64,000 bases of DNA, from the NCBI RefSeq assembly GCF_019654975.1, contig NZ_BPEW01000014.1, positions 1 through 64,000 on the forward strand. Reading direction: 5' to 3'. Numbering within the stretch: the stretch's first letter is position 1; the number at the start of each line of letters is the position of its first letter. This document shows, in pieces, positions 25,993 through 32,517 of this stretch. The DNA comes from Shewanella sp. c952 (GTDB taxonomy: Bacteria; Pseudomonadota; Gammaproteobacteria; Enterobacterales; Shewanellaceae). The translations under genes and the position numbers were made by a program. Under the pieces are notes generated by a model, which was not told the origin of the DNA, made no database searches, and saw only the letters and a program-made list of their open reading frames with translations.

Positions 25993-27450
25993 ATGTCACA
26001 ACATGATGCAGACAATACAATGATCTCGCCGATCCATCAGCGCGCAGCCATAGCACCTAATACCGCTGCTTACCGTATCGGAGAGCTAAAAGTCAGTTAT
26101 CAAACGCTCAGTCAACAAGTGCTGGCTATCGGCGAACAGTTGTTACAAGCCGGCGTACAACGAGGTGCTAGAATTGCCTGTATCGGCCATAACCAACCAG
26201 AATTACTCACGCTATATTGGGCCTGCGTTGATCGCGGTATGTTGTTCTGTCCTATCTCACCACGCTTTGCACCCAAGCAGCTAATAGAGCTGATTCAAAC
26301 TCATCAATATGGTTACTGCTGGTTAGCCGACAGTTCAAATAGCAGTCCCAACCCAGCGCTTAGTATTGATATTACTCAGCAATTAAACCTCGATTTTACT
26401 CAGCACAGCAGAGCTTCAGCACTAGCACTAAACATTGACCCAAGCCAAGGCGTAAACGCCATTCTCACTTCAGGCAGTACAGGATTACCTAAAGCAGCAG
26501 TACATAGCTTGGCGAATCATATCGCCAGTGCTAATGGCTCAAAATCGCTTATAGATATCGCAGCAAAGGATAGCTGGTTATTGTCGCTTCCACTGTTTCA
26601 TATTGGCGGGCTAGCGATTGCCAATCGCTGTGCTCTCGCCGGCGCCAGCGTGGTATTCGAAGACAAGTCAATGAGTCTGGCAACGCAGTTAAGCCGTGAC
26701 AAAATAAGTCATCTATCACTGGTCAGCGCCCAATTGCAAACACTGCTTGATAGCGACAACTGTGAGCTGAGCCAAGTCAAAGCCATGCTACTGGGCGGCG
26801 GCGTGATCTCTGCCGATCTTCTGCAGCAGCTCGAAACGCTTAACATTGCTGCCTATACCAGCTATGGCATGACAGAGATGAGTTCACAAATCACCACAGG
26901 TAAAGCACGTGCCGATAGCTCTAGCGGCACAGTGTTACCCAAGCGAGAACTCAAAATCGTTGATGGTGAAATATGGGTAAAAGGCGAGTGTTTGTTTCTT
27001 GGCTATTTAACGCAAGACAGCTTTCAACGACCGACAGATAGCGAGGGTTGGTTCTACACCAAAGACTTGGGACATTGGGATGAAAACGCCAACCTACGCA
27101 TTGATGGCAGAGCCGACAACATGTTTATCAGTGGCGGCGAGAATATCCAACCAGAAGAGATTGAGGCAGCGCTAAAGCTGCACCCGCAGATAGATGACGC
27201 CATCGTCTTTGCAATCGCCGATGACAAATTTGGCAGCCTACCCGCTGCGACTATTAAAATCGCCAACAATTCAGTAAGTCAGCCAGCAGAACCTGAGTTA
27301 ACCGCATTTCTTGCCGACAAAATTGCCCGTTTTAAAAGACCAAGACAATATTACCCATGGCCTGATATCACCACAGTGGGAATTAAAGTTGTGCGCAAAC
27401 AGGTTATAGCAGCGGTGATTAAAGCTAAATACTCTCAATTAGGGAAGTAA
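25993..27450 (+). CDS. menE: MenE, o-succinylbenzoate-CoA ligase
   Basis: A 485-residue AMP-forming ligase that activates o-succinylbenzoate with CoA. The adenylation P-loop is ILTSGSTGLPKAAVHS, the A5 motif is YTSYGMTEMSSQ, the A7 motif is GWFYTKDLG, and A8 is NMFISGGENIQPEEIE; the catalytic Lys is near the C-terminus (GIKVVRKQ). Last gene of the men operon. MenB and MenA are not in this window. No clear terminator follows; a 300-bp non-coding stretch and the 51-bp repeats do. Confidence 0.94.
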   Translation: MSQHDADNTMISPIHQRAAIAPNTAAYRIGELKVSYQTLSQQVLAIGEQLLQAGVQRGARIACIGHNQPELLTLYWACVDRGMLFCPISPRFAPKQLIELIQTHQYGYCWLADSSNSSPNPALSIDITQQLNLDFTQHSRASALALNIDPSQGVNAILTSGSTGLPKAAVHSLANHIASANGSKSLIDIAAKDSWLLSLPLFHIGGLAIANRCALAGASVVFEDKSMSLATQLSRDKISHLSLVSAQLQTLLDSDNCELSQVKAMLLGGGVISADLLQQLETLNIAAYTSYGMTEMSSQITTGKARADSSSGTVLPKRELKIVDGEIWVKGECLFLGYLTQDSFQRPTDSEGWFYTKDLGHWDENANLRIDGRADNMFISGGENIQPEEIEAALKLHPQIDDAIVFAIADDKFGSLPAATIKIANNSVSQPAEPELTAFLADKIARFKRPRQYYPWPDITTVGIKVVRKQVIAAVIKAKYSQLGK

Positions 27451-27762
27451 TTGCAGGCACGGTAATTCCAACTGCTTGCCGCCGTGCTGGTGCTCAAAAA
27501 CACGACCCATTTTGAATCGGTATCCACTATTTAGCGGCAAAATATAAAGATACGACAGAGATGCAGTTGTGGCCTAAACACATGCAACCAACTGACAGAA
27601 TCAACTCTCCCCCGTTGGAAATTTTGCTGTTTAAATTTCGCTGGGGCGCTGAGGGGTTACCTCATATGAAATCAACAGCGGGGACAAGCCCTTTCTCCCT
27701 TGGCTCTGCTCTGTATTACAAGAATAGGCGTATCGCCACAACGATAATCAAGCGCAGCTTAT
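27451..27762. other. Non-coding stretch between menE and the tandem repeats
   Basis: No supported gene. It contains an imperfect inverted repeat CCCCGTTGG...AAATTT / AAATTTCGCTGGGG at about 27609-27646 and a further GC-rich stretch to about 27690. The open frame that starts at 27561 runs into the tandem repeats and is not supported. The stretch may be a decayed dispersed repeat. Confidence 0.35.
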
Positions 27763-27938
27763 GGCATAAATGTTCCAGACATAAAGCCAAAAAATATCCA
27801 TCCATGGTTTTTTGGCATAAATGTTCCAGACATAAAGCCATAAGCTACCCACCCATGGGCTTATAGCATAAATGTTCCAGACATAAAGCCATAAGCTACC
27901 CATCCATGGGCTTATGGCATAAATGTTCCAGACATAAA
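27763..27938. repeat. 51-bp tandem repeat, three copies plus a partial fourth, hairpin-forming
   Basis: Copies at 27763-27813, 27814-27864 and 27865-27915, then 23 bp of a fourth up to 27938. Each holds a constant 26-bp block (GGCATAAATG... to ...AAAGCC) and a 25-bp part that forms, together with the next copy, a 9-bp stem with a 13-nt loop carrying CCATCCATGG. In copy 1 the stem is GCCAAAAAA/TTTTTTGGC; in copies 2 and 3 it is GCCATAAGC/GCTTATGGC. The array ends at the T run of the rpoH terminator. Confidence 0.85.
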
Positions 27939-27960
27939 AAAACCTGCTGTTAAGCAGGTT
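27933..27960 (-). terminator. Rho-independent terminator of rpoH
   Basis: On the minus strand AACCTGC (27960-27954) pairs with GCAGGTT (27947-27941) around TTAACA, followed by a run of at least seven T. It lies 25 bp after the rpoH stop codon and touches the last partial copy of the 51-bp repeat. Confidence 0.9.
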
Positions 27961-27985
27961 TTCTTTAAAGCACCAATAAAAAGCC

Positions 27986-28843
27986 TTAGCCTTCCATTCG
28001 TCCTTTTAACTTGTTCATTGCATTCTTCTCTAGTTGGCGGATACGCTCTGCCGATACTTGATAAGTTGCTGCTAGCTCTTGTAGCGTGGTTTTATCTTCA
28101 TTTAACCAACGAGCCTGAAGAATGTGCTGACTACGCTCATCAAGAGTCTTGATAGCTGACAGTAAACGCGTTTGGTTGCTTTGTTCCCAGTTGTCATTTT
28201 CAACTTGAGAAGCTAAATCAGATGAATGATCTTCAAGGTAATGCATAGGCGCATAATCTTTTTCATCATCGTTATCGCTAGCTAAATCAAACGCTGGATC
28301 TTGAGCTGCCATGCGTGATTCCATTTCGGTCACGTCGGCTTTAGAAACACCCAAGCTTTCTGCAACCATACCGACTTCATTATCACTAAACCAGCCAAGA
28401 CGCTTCTTAGTTTTACGAAGGTTAAAGAACAACTTACGTTGTGCTTTTGTGGTTGCCACTTTCACTATGCGCCAGTTTTTAAGCACATATTCATGAATTT
28501 CAGCTTTAATCCAATGTACGGCAAATGACACCAAACGCACGCCCACATCAGGGTCAAAACGCTTAACGGCTTTCATCAAGCCAATATTACCTTCTTGAAT
28601 CAAATCGGCTTGCGGTAGACCGTATCCTGAGTAGCCTTTAGCGACATGCACTACAAAACGCAGGTGCGACATAATCAGCTCTTTCGCAGCACTTAGGTCA
28701 CCAGTTTCCTGTAGACGCTTCGCTAGCTCATGCTCTTTCTCCGCATCCAGCATAGAGATGCTGTGCGCTGAGTGAATATAAGACTCGAGGCTTCCACTAC
28801 TTTGAGGAACCATTAGTGCCATTGTTTGCGTTTGATCAGTCAT
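27986..28843 (-). CDS. rpoH: RNA polymerase sigma-32 factor (heat shock)
   Basis: A 285-residue sigma70-family protein, the normal RpoH length. Region 2 is [24 protein letters not shown], the RpoH box [10 protein letters not shown] is at about 135-144, and region 4.2 is [29 protein letters not shown]. It directs transcription of heat-shock chaperones and proteases. It follows ftsX on the same strand with a 204-bp gap containing its own promoter, as in E. coli. A strong terminator follows. Confidence 0.96.
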
Positions 28844-30759: not shown

Positions 30760-32517
30760 CTATTTTGTGTCGCTGTCGTCTTTTGATTGACTAAATAACG
30801 CTTCAATAAAGTCTTTAGCATCAAATGTGCGAAGATCGTCAATCTGCTCACCCACACCAATATGGCGAATTGGGATACCGAACTTGTCTGCAATAGCAAA
30901 GATAACGCCGCCTTTGGCTGTACCGTCTAACTTGCTAATGGTAATGCCCGTAACACCAACCGCTTCTTGGAAAAGCTGCGCTTGGCTAATAGCATTCTGA
31001 CCAGTACTCGCATCTAAGGTCAGCATCACTTCGTGAGGCGCTGATTCATCCTGCTTTTTCATCACTCGAACGACTTTCTTTAGCTCGTCCATCAAATGTG
31101 CTTTGTTTTGCAAACGACCTGCTGTATCAGCAATGAGTACATCCGCTTTACGCGCTCTTGCAGCCTGCAAAGCATCGAACAACACTGAAGCACTATCGGC
31201 GCCTGTATGCTGGGCAATCACAGGGATATCGTTGCGCTGACCCCATACTTGCAACTGCTCAACTGCAGCAGCTCGGAAAGTATCACCCGCGGCAAGCATC
31301 ACTGACTTGCCCTGCGCTTGATACTGCTTCGCGAGTTTACCGATGGTGGTTGTCTTACCCACACCGTTTACACCTACCATCAAAATAACAAATGGGCCGT
31401 CAGCATTTTCTGGGATCAGTGGCACAGAGACCGGATCGAGTGTCTTTTGCATCTCATCGCGCATCAAATCATATAGCGCTTCGCCATCTTTAAGTTGTTT
31501 ACGGCTGGCTTGCTCAGTTAAGTTTTTAATTAAGCGAGTGGTGGTTTCGACACCAACGTCAGCAATCAACAGCTGCTCTTCTAACTCTTCAAAAAGATCA
31601 TCATCAATCTTCTTGCCACTGAATATTCCCGCAAAGCCACTACCAATACTTTCACTTGTGCGCTTTAAGCCACGTTTAAGTCGAGCGAATAACCCCTCTT
31701 TAACAGGTTTTGCTTGTGGCTCTGGTTGCTGTTCTGCAACGTCTTGCTCAGCCTGCTCTTGAGTAACTCTTTCTGCTTCTAGCTGTTCTGCAGCAATACG
31801 CTCGGCTTCTGCCTCTGCAGCTTGTTCACTGGCAATTCTAGCAGCTTCCGCTTGCTCGGCAGCAATACGCTCAGCTTCTGCCTTTGCAGCTTGTTCACTG
31901 GCAACTCTGGCAGCTTCCGCTTGCTCGGCAGCAATACGCTCAGCTTCTGCCTTTGCAGCTTGCTCGCTGGCAATTCTGGTAGCTTCCGCTTGCTCGGCAG
32001 CAATACGCTCAGCTTCTGCCGCTGCAGCTTGCTCACTGGCAATTCTGGCAGCTTCCACTTGCTCGGCAGCAATACGCTCAGCTTCCACCTTTGCAGCTTG
32101 CTCGCTGGCAATTCTGACAGCCTCCGCTTGCTCGGCAGCAATATGCTCAGCTTCCACCTTTGCAGCTTGTTCAGTGGCAATTCTGGTAGCTTCCGCTTGC
32201 TCGCTGGCAATTCTTGCAGCTTCCGCTTGCTCGGCAGCAATATGCTCAGATTCTGCCTCTGCAGCTTGTTCACTGGCAATTCTGGCAGCTTCCGCTTGCT
32301 CGGCAGCAATACGCTCAGCTTCCGCCTTTGCAGCTTGCTCGCTGGCAATTCTGACAGCTTCGGCCTGCTCATCGGCAACGCGTTCAACTTCAACTTGTGC
32401 TGCATCAACCAGCTCTGTTTCTGCCTCAGTTGAAACATTCAACTCTGCTTCTACATCTTGCGGTTGTTCTTTAGATTTATCTTTGCGGAACCAGGAAAAA
32501 AAACCTTTCTTTGCCAT
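30760..32517 (-). CDS. ftsY: FtsY, signal recognition particle receptor, with repeat-expanded N-terminal domain
   Basis: A 585-residue protein, clearly longer than the about 500 of E. coli FtsY. The C-terminal NG GTPase (about 285-580) is complete: GVNGVGKTTTIGKLA, DTFRAAAVEQL, DTAGRLQNK and TKLDGTAKGG. The N-terminal acidic domain (about 50-265) consists of about eight imperfect 23-residue repeats of the type AEAERIAAEQAEAARIASEQ, predicted as a long charged helix that contacts lipid or translocon. It receives SRP-ribosome complexes at the membrane. First gene of ftsY-ftsE-ftsX, divergent from rsmD. Confidence 0.95.
   Translation of the reverse strand: MAKKGFFSWFRKDKSKEQPQDVEAELNVSTEAETELVDAAQVEVERVADEQAEAVRIASEQAAKAEAERIAAEQAEAARIASEQAAEAESEHIAAEQAEAARIASEQAEATRIATEQAAKVEAEHIAAEQAEAVRIASEQAAKVEAERIAAEQVEAARIASEQAAAAEAERIAAEQAEATRIASEQAAKAEAERIAAEQAEAARVASEQAAKAEAERIAAEQAEAARIASEQAAEAEAERIAAEQLEAERVTQEQAEQDVAEQQPEPQAKPVKEGLFARLKRGLKRTSESIGSGFAGIFSGKKIDDDLFEELEEQLLIADVGVETTTRLIKNLTEQASRKQLKDGEALYDLMRDEMQKTLDPVSVPLIPENADGPFVILMVGVNGVGKTTTIGKLAKQYQAQGKSVMLAAGDTFRAAAVEQLQVWGQRNDIPVIAQHTGADSASVLFDALQAARARKADVLIADTAGRLQNKAHLMDELKKVVRVMKKQDESAPHEVMLTLDASTGQNAISQAQLFQEAVGVTGITISKLDGTAKGGVIFAIADKFGIPIRHIGVGEQIDDLRTFDAKDFIEALFSQSKDDSDTK
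31780..32370 (-). repeat. 69-bp in-frame tandem repeats inside ftsY
   Basis: About eight imperfect copies of a 69-bp unit encode the 23-residue repeat of the FtsY N-terminal domain. One copy carries an extra 10-residue insertion (AEATRIATEQ). The copies differ at few positions, mainly Ala/Thr/Val and Lys/Glu/Ala changes. The composition also keeps other frames open on both strands, which explains long spurious open frames here. Confidence 0.9.

Follow-up and report, generated by a model that had tools for sequence, protein, structure and literature searches.

The stretch of DNA analysed here (the window) comprises 64,000 nucleotides of the genome of Shewanella sp. c952, which is assembled into 5.05 Mb on 168 contigs. 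Between the convergent genes rpoH and a menE-like ligase gene lies a tandem array of hairpins and linkers, which we read on the rpoH-sense (minus) strand. Hairpin copies are numbered by rising coordinate and linker copies from the terminator. The features are:

25993 to 27450, plus strand: menE-like o-succinylbenzoate--CoA ligase (TIGR01923, 387.9 bits), the convergent neighbour
27757 to 27938, minus strand: whole tandem array, period 51 (TRF and 20-mer spacing)
27765 to 27782, minus strand: linker copy 4, ATGTCTGGAACATTTATG, with the mini-hairpin ATGT-CTGGA-ACAT
27786 to 27816, minus strand: hairpin with AAAAAA/TTTTTT arms and loop CCATGGATGG (folding)
27816 to 27833, minus strand: linker copy 3
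27837 to 27867, minus strand: hairpin with ATAAGC arms, one mismatch (G-U on the minus strand) and loop CCATGGGTGG, in which GGA is lost
27867 to 27884, minus strand: linker copy 2
27888 to 27918, minus strand: hairpin with ATAAGC arms and loop CCATGGATGG (folding)
27918 to 27935, minus strand: linker copy 1, immediately 3' of the T-tract
27936 to 27962, minus strand: rpoH terminator hairpin (CCTGCTTAACAGCAGG) and 7-T tract (reading and folding; not listed by the consensus scan)
27986 to 28843, minus strand: rpoH, sigma-32 (TIGR02392, 422.8 bits), the gene upstream of the array via its terminator

TRF reports the repeat at 27757-27938 with a period of 51, 3.6 copies, 89% matches and a score of 301; the 51-bp tandem repeat that the first-pass annotation had placed at 27763-27938 is real in kind and period but longer, opening at 27757 with a lone half-hairpin. 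Three hairpins and four linkers make up the array, whose 51-bp unit starts at the T-tract of the rpoH terminator. In the direction of rpoH the order is rpoH, terminator hairpin, seven T, three rounds of ATGTCTGGAACATTTATG, hairpin and (C)TTT, then a fourth linker and a half hairpin, and the array does end, as annotated, at the minus-strand T-tract of the rpoH terminator. The 3' side of each hairpin bears a 3-nt bulge; the arms are 9 bp long and the apical part is CCATGGATGG, replaced in copy 2 by CCATGGGTGG. Four copies of the 20-mer CATAAATGTTCCAGACATAA are spaced 51 bp apart (27765, 27816, 27867 and 27918), in line with the claim of a kept linker, but the loop, claimed to be kept as well, is altered in copy 2 (CCACCCATGG). 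Copy 1 carries the arms GCCAAAAAA...TTTTTTGGC and copies 2 and 3 the arms GCCATAAGC...GCTTAT(A/G)GC, so that three positions per arm differ complementarily, which agrees with the compensated stem changes described at first. The description of copies near-identical outside this change is right about one AAAAAA/TTTTTT and two ATAAGC/GCTTAT hairpins but overlooks that copy 2 has a stem mismatch (GCTTATAGC) besides its loop change, which leaves one of the three window hairpin loops with GGG instead of GGA. The 182-nt plus strand folds at -57.2 kcal/mol (shuffles -35.3 +/- 4.1, z -5.4); folded alone, copy 2 barely beats its shuffles (33 of 200 as good), and copies 1 and 3 are equalled by 4 and 2 of 200. 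The suspicion that the copy 1 difference is a sequencing or assembly artefact, to which a draft assembly in 168 contigs lends some colour, can practically be dismissed because the relative G086 has the same AAAAAA/TTTTTT hairpin next to an ATAAGC hairpin at its own rpoH site (L174 = L148). Elsewhere in the window (31790-32427), tandem repeats with periods of 69 and 168 bp encode a part rich in alanine and glutamate close to the beginning of the ORF 30760-32517, which we take to resemble FtsY.

The array is a local copy of a Shewanella intergenic repeat family that is centred on one part of the genus. In the named genome collection, 44 of the 45 stretches with the exact 19-nt linker are from Shewanella; the other is a single match in Aquibacillus (L074), which has no hairpin, was taken as chance and was left out of the site table and the count of array starts. 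The window's own genome holds 13 linker matches at up to three mismatches (reversed control 0), one of which (L017, G000:C12) has no hairpin in the stretch read and is probably also due to chance. At up to two mismatches the linker is present in 33 of 145 genomes, namely 33 of the 87 in the genus (the window's own included) and 0 of the 58 outside it, while the reversed linker gave one match, in one genome outside the genus. Its presence tracks relatedness: all 19 genomes whose rpoH stretch scores closest to that of the window carry it, and in the full ranking by this stretch it occurs in 32 of the 42 closest genomes (the window's own included) vs 1 of the 45 others. The further copies that the first-pass annotation proposed to look for thus exist, as a covariance model (R1) built from 40 units gave at least 385 matches in at least 36 of the 87 genus genomes, with the best 60 candidates per genome scored under strict filters. 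Across the wider order, where the best 17 candidates per genome were scored, at least 8 of 295 genomes match, at least two of which, G108 and G162, with one scored match each, do not belong to the genus. These two genomes carry two and four tandem two-hairpin modules (L341, L344) with other stems and ANGGA or CNGGA loops, whose computed folds are mixed, several GGAs lying in loops and others being paired. Among the best candidates scored, G007 and G073 have one weak model match each, and reading showed both to be related two-GGA hairpins; L342 holds a two-GGA module with a different stem. Several other origins were discarded. In viral contigs the linker has four exact matches, all without the hairpin and coding-like by eye, and BLAST of the repeat against phages and plasmids gave no match. 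By eye, the unit has no GTTRRRY core of an integron attC, and as for coding, short frames cross some arrays, yet the commonest periods are 50, 51 and 57.

Within this family, stem sequences turn over while their pairing is kept. In an alignment of 40 distinct units (A1), 92.3% of the cells pair and the covariation across copies that had been suggested as a check is evident, with two-sided changes at ten stem pairs and in 104 cells, the latter vs 35.4 +/- 4.4 in shuffles. The covariation score is 0.339 vs 0.094, every slid register scores lower, and sliding the partner by one to three columns lowers pairing to 30-49%. The 136 distinct hairpins from the loci then fetched have 68 different 7-nt arms, and 852 of their 947 inner stem pairs (the inner seven) are Watson-Crick; these pairing figures, and the GGA figures below, are raised by the selection of hairpins, which demanded a net stem score of 4 or more and a loop differing from the motif by at most one substitution, and count distinct sequences, orthologous loci included, not independent events. 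The conserved loop itself was noticed before any loop or stem filter was applied. Where 13 neighbouring pairs of hairpins have different stems, 154 of 182 positions are Watson-Crick within a hairpin but 42 of 91 across the linker, so the unit that is kept is the loop-centred hairpin, and the earlier idea of a hairpin preserved despite stem change extends from the window to all 136. The mismatched inner pairs comprise 16 G-T, 21 A-C and 58 others; with 58 of 947 plain mismatches and 37 G-T or A-C, stepwise change is likelier than perfect copying between arms, which speaks against the inversion or conversion that had been offered as the driver.

The kinds of mismatch bear on whether the stems are selected as RNA. 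Against the 16 G-T, 21 A-C and 58 others among the 947 inner-seven pairs of the array stems, the same count in 103 terminators of the same loci gave 14, 3 and 4 of 721, which is what a transcribed RNA should show (Fisher, stems vs terminators, p 0.009 for G-T vs A-C and p 0.0006 for G-T plus A-C vs other). Leaving out the loop-adjacent pair, array stems have 11 G-T, 15 A-C and 33 other mismatches among 811 pairs. Whole terminator stems (21, 9 and 7) gave p 0.047, and the inner-seven control speaks more strongly against RNA selection on the stems than this whole-stem count. Since G-T is not favoured, unlike in the terminators, the wobble signature expected of a selected RNA is absent from the stem. 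The outer stem pairs are G-T in 47 and 40 cells and A-C in none, probably the outcome of a few old events. The structured RNA or protein-binding array proposed in the first-pass annotation fits the constant GGA loops, but RNA-level selection on the stem stays unproved, as the stems are without the G-U preference of the adjacent terminators.

As to placement, 101 of 116 distinct array starts lie directly 3' of a hairpin and T-tract, and among the remaining 15, two have a T-tract but no hairpin by the cut-off and six follow a CCCC...GGGG hairpin plus TTT of a second repeat family. The rpoH site is empty in G072 (T7-ATGTCTAGAGTTTACC) and filled in G076, where the units are flanked by TTTATGTCTGGA on both sides (L181 vs L182); just a palindrome, ATGTCTGGAAC...GTTC(C/T)AGACAT, remains in G054 and G004. 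In G027, G058 and G011 the second family sits behind the same T-tract, with stems GTATA/TATAC and CCCC/GGGG and GGA loops, and in the linker-negative Shewanella G007 it (GTATATGGATATAC, CCCC...GGGG) lies behind another T-tract (L343, about 1480-1580). Filled and empty versions also occur at the cysS-folD site among 30 genomes, and the longest tandem expansion reaches 19 linkers (L082). Thus, relatives vary in the presence and copy number of the units, which are usually anchored at the T-tract. The downstream gene is convergent at 38 and in the same direction at 22 of 77 tabulated sites, a table that includes some chance linker matches. By eye, a related hairpin element appears to lie inside the linker in L005 (1330-1500) and L062 (about 6536, plus strand), inverted relative to the terminator and with its GGA loops on the opposite strand. 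Other repeats were seen as well: AGAACCT heptamer runs lie behind the cysS terminator at five cysS-folD loci (L239, L240, L246, L247 and L254) where other species carry hairpin arrays, and a repeat with two NGGA hairpins lies behind rpoH in L036 (600-670), with similar ones by eye in L047, L060 and L071.

What stays constant is the loop, together with the linker. On the rpoH-sense strand, CCANGGANGG holds the motif CANGGANG with both N free, and its columns over the 136 hairpins read C 132, A 136, N (T 87, G 25, A 20, C 4), G 134, G 136, A 134, N (T 108, C 20, G 6, A 2) and G 133. The motif characterises the hairpin loops of this set, one substitution having been allowed in its selection, and is present in window copies 1 and 3 and absent from copy 2. 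The site consensus of RsmA, RsmE and CsrA, in the passages of two papers considered here, is (A/U)CANGGANG(U/A) (PMC4353343, PMC6692469); the repeat loops match the CsrA/RsmE consensus and are thus candidate binding sites. Each unit joins a hairpin of free stem sequence to an 18-nt linker, where the second GGA of the unit lies at a distance of some 26 nt in a mini-hairpin ATGT-CNGGA-ACAT whose N is variable (T 209, A 11, C 7, G 6 of 233). The outer pair of this mini-hairpin covaries (A-T 158, G-C 50, G-T 17, A-C 5, other 3 of 233), and the G-U test is weakly positive for the linker, with 28 G-T vs 10 A-C types by context and 18 vs 10 by distinct linker. The TTATG of the linker is conserved at 97-99% of 233, a conservation that is partly built in because most loci were found via the linker pattern. 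In the window, CANGGANG alone is not enriched (9 vs 21.1 in shuffles). Local folding of the window's minus strand (span 45) gives GGA an unpaired probability of 0.73-1.0 in the two intact hairpin loops and of 0.48-0.98 in the linkers, and without a limit on the span most linker GGs pair.

Its rows of ANGGA-loop hairpins liken the array to the decoys CsrB, CsrC, RsmY and RsmZ, which have their own promoter and terminator and are not known to have a strict tandem unit. No Rfam Csr family matches the arrays, the CsrB model giving no match up to E 1 on those tested, and among small RNA models STnc50 scores best over the window array (39.1 bits, below its cut-off of 55). The window's own genome does encode a CsrB-like RNA (G000:C11:63122-63453, L232) with 15 GGA and 74.8 bits vs a cut-off of 71, next to another (G000:C11:62483-62851, L233) with 23 GGA and 33 bits, below that cut-off. 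A precedent is offered by the E. coli RNAs RrA, RrB and RrF, which, according to the passages considered, arise by read-through of the first terminator behind rRNA genes and bind CsrA in vitro (PMC8144298). Both lie behind a first terminator and have GGA motifs in loops; as far as those passages go, the Rr RNAs are one conserved RNA between two rRNA terminators, whereas the array is a member of a family of repeats that follow various genes and have free stems, and the window shows no clear second terminator (one weak minus-strand candidate, 27519-27503). GGA in hairpin loops is also a trait of TwoAYGGAY RNA (RF01731; PMC2864571, seen in part), whose model gave no match on the arrays of 10 loci and a sub-threshold match outside the arrays at the L036 repeat (39.2 bits, cut-off 43).

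As short intergenic palindromes in tandem or mosaic arrays, the units resemble REP/BIME elements as portrayed in parts of two papers (PMC3733652, PMC2817692), but the 40 aligned units have no GTAG/CGTC tag at the stem foot, which is TTATG instead. A RAYT partner was at first suspected because, among the 14 genomes passing the RAYT cut-off, the 13 with strong matches (at least 131 bits) are all among the 33 array-bearing ones; the fourteenth, G026 (91 bits), is not array-bearing. No unit lies within about 1.5 kb at any of the 14 RAYT loci, with partial matches amounting to one linker-like sequence with two mismatches (L212) and two loop-like ones with 3-pair stems (L215). In the Shewanella G067 (L202, 1000-2060), the RAYT gene is flanked by repeats of the types GTAGGAGC and GTAGGAGCG, and 20 array-bearing genomes, the window's included, lack a strong RAYT, so this partnership was rejected. 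Among the open-licence papers, as far as their passages go, we recognised none that describes these Shewanella repeats, and the passages on Csr RNAs of Pseudoalteromonas (PMC11882849) make no mention of Shewanella. While an interspersed palindromic repeat is of a known kind, its CsrA-type loops and post-terminator position are new.

Our main reading, to which we give a probability of roughly 0.4, is that a mobile-looking repeat places CsrA-type sites behind terminators, where they would serve as decoys on read-through RNA. Some machinery may have spread the units to terminator T-tracts, or kept them there, after which they would multiply in tandem. The GGA motifs read on the sense strand of the terminated gene, and polymerase reading through the terminator would yield RNA with GGA sites about every 25 nt. 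Such minus-strand RNA might expose rows of CsrA/RsmA-type hairpins and bind CsrA, whose presence in the genome we assume, and the bound arrays could act as an extra decoy beside the CsrB-like RNAs or tag the read-through RNA. This is supported because stems covary while loops keep CANGGANG and array starts adjoin terminators, and because the second family with its unrelated stems and the modules of G108 and G162 also keep GGA loops. The variable N and covarying outer pair of the linker mini-hairpin, the E. coli precedent and the CsrB-like RNAs of the genome speak for it too. Against it stand the location of the GGA strand downstream of a terminator, stems without G-U bias, the lost GGA in one window loop, and the conservation of TTATG, which CsrA binding leaves unexplained. 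The negative promoter scan, the missing enrichment of CANGGANG in the window, the inverted related modules (L005, L062), the lack of an Rfam Csr match and the mostly paired linker GGs of the unrestricted fold count against it as well.

A mobile or selfish hairpin repeat acting purely at the DNA level, organised like REP/BIME or MITE elements and yielding no functional RNA, is nearly as likely. A recombinase or transposase would read the hairpin with its fixed loop and linker and target T-tracts, as suggested by the 101 of 116 starts at such tracts, by the filled and empty orthologous rpoH sites with a direct repeat TTTATGTCTGGA around the filled one, by the expansion to 19 linkers and by the element apparently inserted within the linker. 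Stem mismatches without the strand bias of terminators fit it too, and recognition by a recombinase, for instance, could explain the strictly conserved linker. On the other hand, no partner protein was found, the RAYT loci being without units, there is no plasmid or phage match, the loop varies at the very positions left free in the CsrA consensus, and GGA loops are retained across unrelated stems and families. The main reading and this one are weighted as they are because the terminator G-U control is negative, no promoter is listed (a sigma-70-like scan near the window array found 0 vs 1.8 in shuffles, and the same scan missed the rpoH terminator) and the strict linker needs another explanation. 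A function on the other strand, the array presenting UCC loops or stem-loops that protect mRNA ends in the 3' untranslated RNA of the convergent gene, seems improbable: a bidirectional terminator would put the array within the convergent transcript, and the downstream gene is convergent at about half of the tabulated sites (38 of 77, some chance linker matches among them), but it runs in the same direction at 22, and the outer stem and outer linker pairs show G-T rather than A-C on the GGA strand, which would leave no wobble on the UCC strand. We consider it equally hard to credit that the repeats have no function and that quasi-palindrome template switching keeps their arms complementary while tandem duplication multiplies them. 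Tandem arrays and long inverted repeats are known substrates of such processes, but template switching would not hold GGA at 134-136 of 136 during stem turnover, would not place 101 of 116 array starts behind terminators, and should produce perfect arms, yet 95 of 947 inner pairs are imperfect.

The two-GGA arrangement is wider than the tandem family. The window's own genome contains 63 occurrences of CCANGGANGG (31 for the reversed control) and 46 of TGTNNGGAACA (27 for its reversed control), with 21 same-strand pairs of hairpin and then mini-hairpin 26-29 nt apart, two of them in the window array. Among the matches listed, about a dozen of 17 aligned loci lie, by eye, within a MITE-like repeat with ends such as ATACCAATC.GTATAA...TTATAC.GATTGGTAT; the repeat with these inverted ends (ATACCAATC.GTATAA) is found in the own genome at L278, L280, L283, L285, L287, L288, L290, L293, L295, L305 and L306 (about 1501). 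Its two-GGA module has differing self-complementary stems (AGCATGT-CAGGA-ACATGCT, ATTTTGT-ATGGA-ACAAAAT), and an Rfam scan of the module at 12 loci matched no family. Because a similar module rides in this second repeat, a broader and more doubtful proposal is worth stating, namely that the portable cargo of a repetitive, mobile-looking element is a CsrA-binding pair of GGA hairpins, spaced by about 26 nt, which the element deposits behind the terminators of many genes within one part of the genus and then multiplies in tandem, read-through feeding the Csr network. Related modules are also carried by the separate MITE-like repeat and, as tandem copies, by two genomes from other families of the order. 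Should the loops bind CsrA, repetitive DNA would act both as a source and as a spreader of regulatory decoys, and terminator read-through would be an input to the Csr system. Even without CsrA binding, this repeat family is anchored to terminators almost to the base, its covarying stems number in the scores and no transposase is known for it, which makes both its movement and its constraint directly testable.
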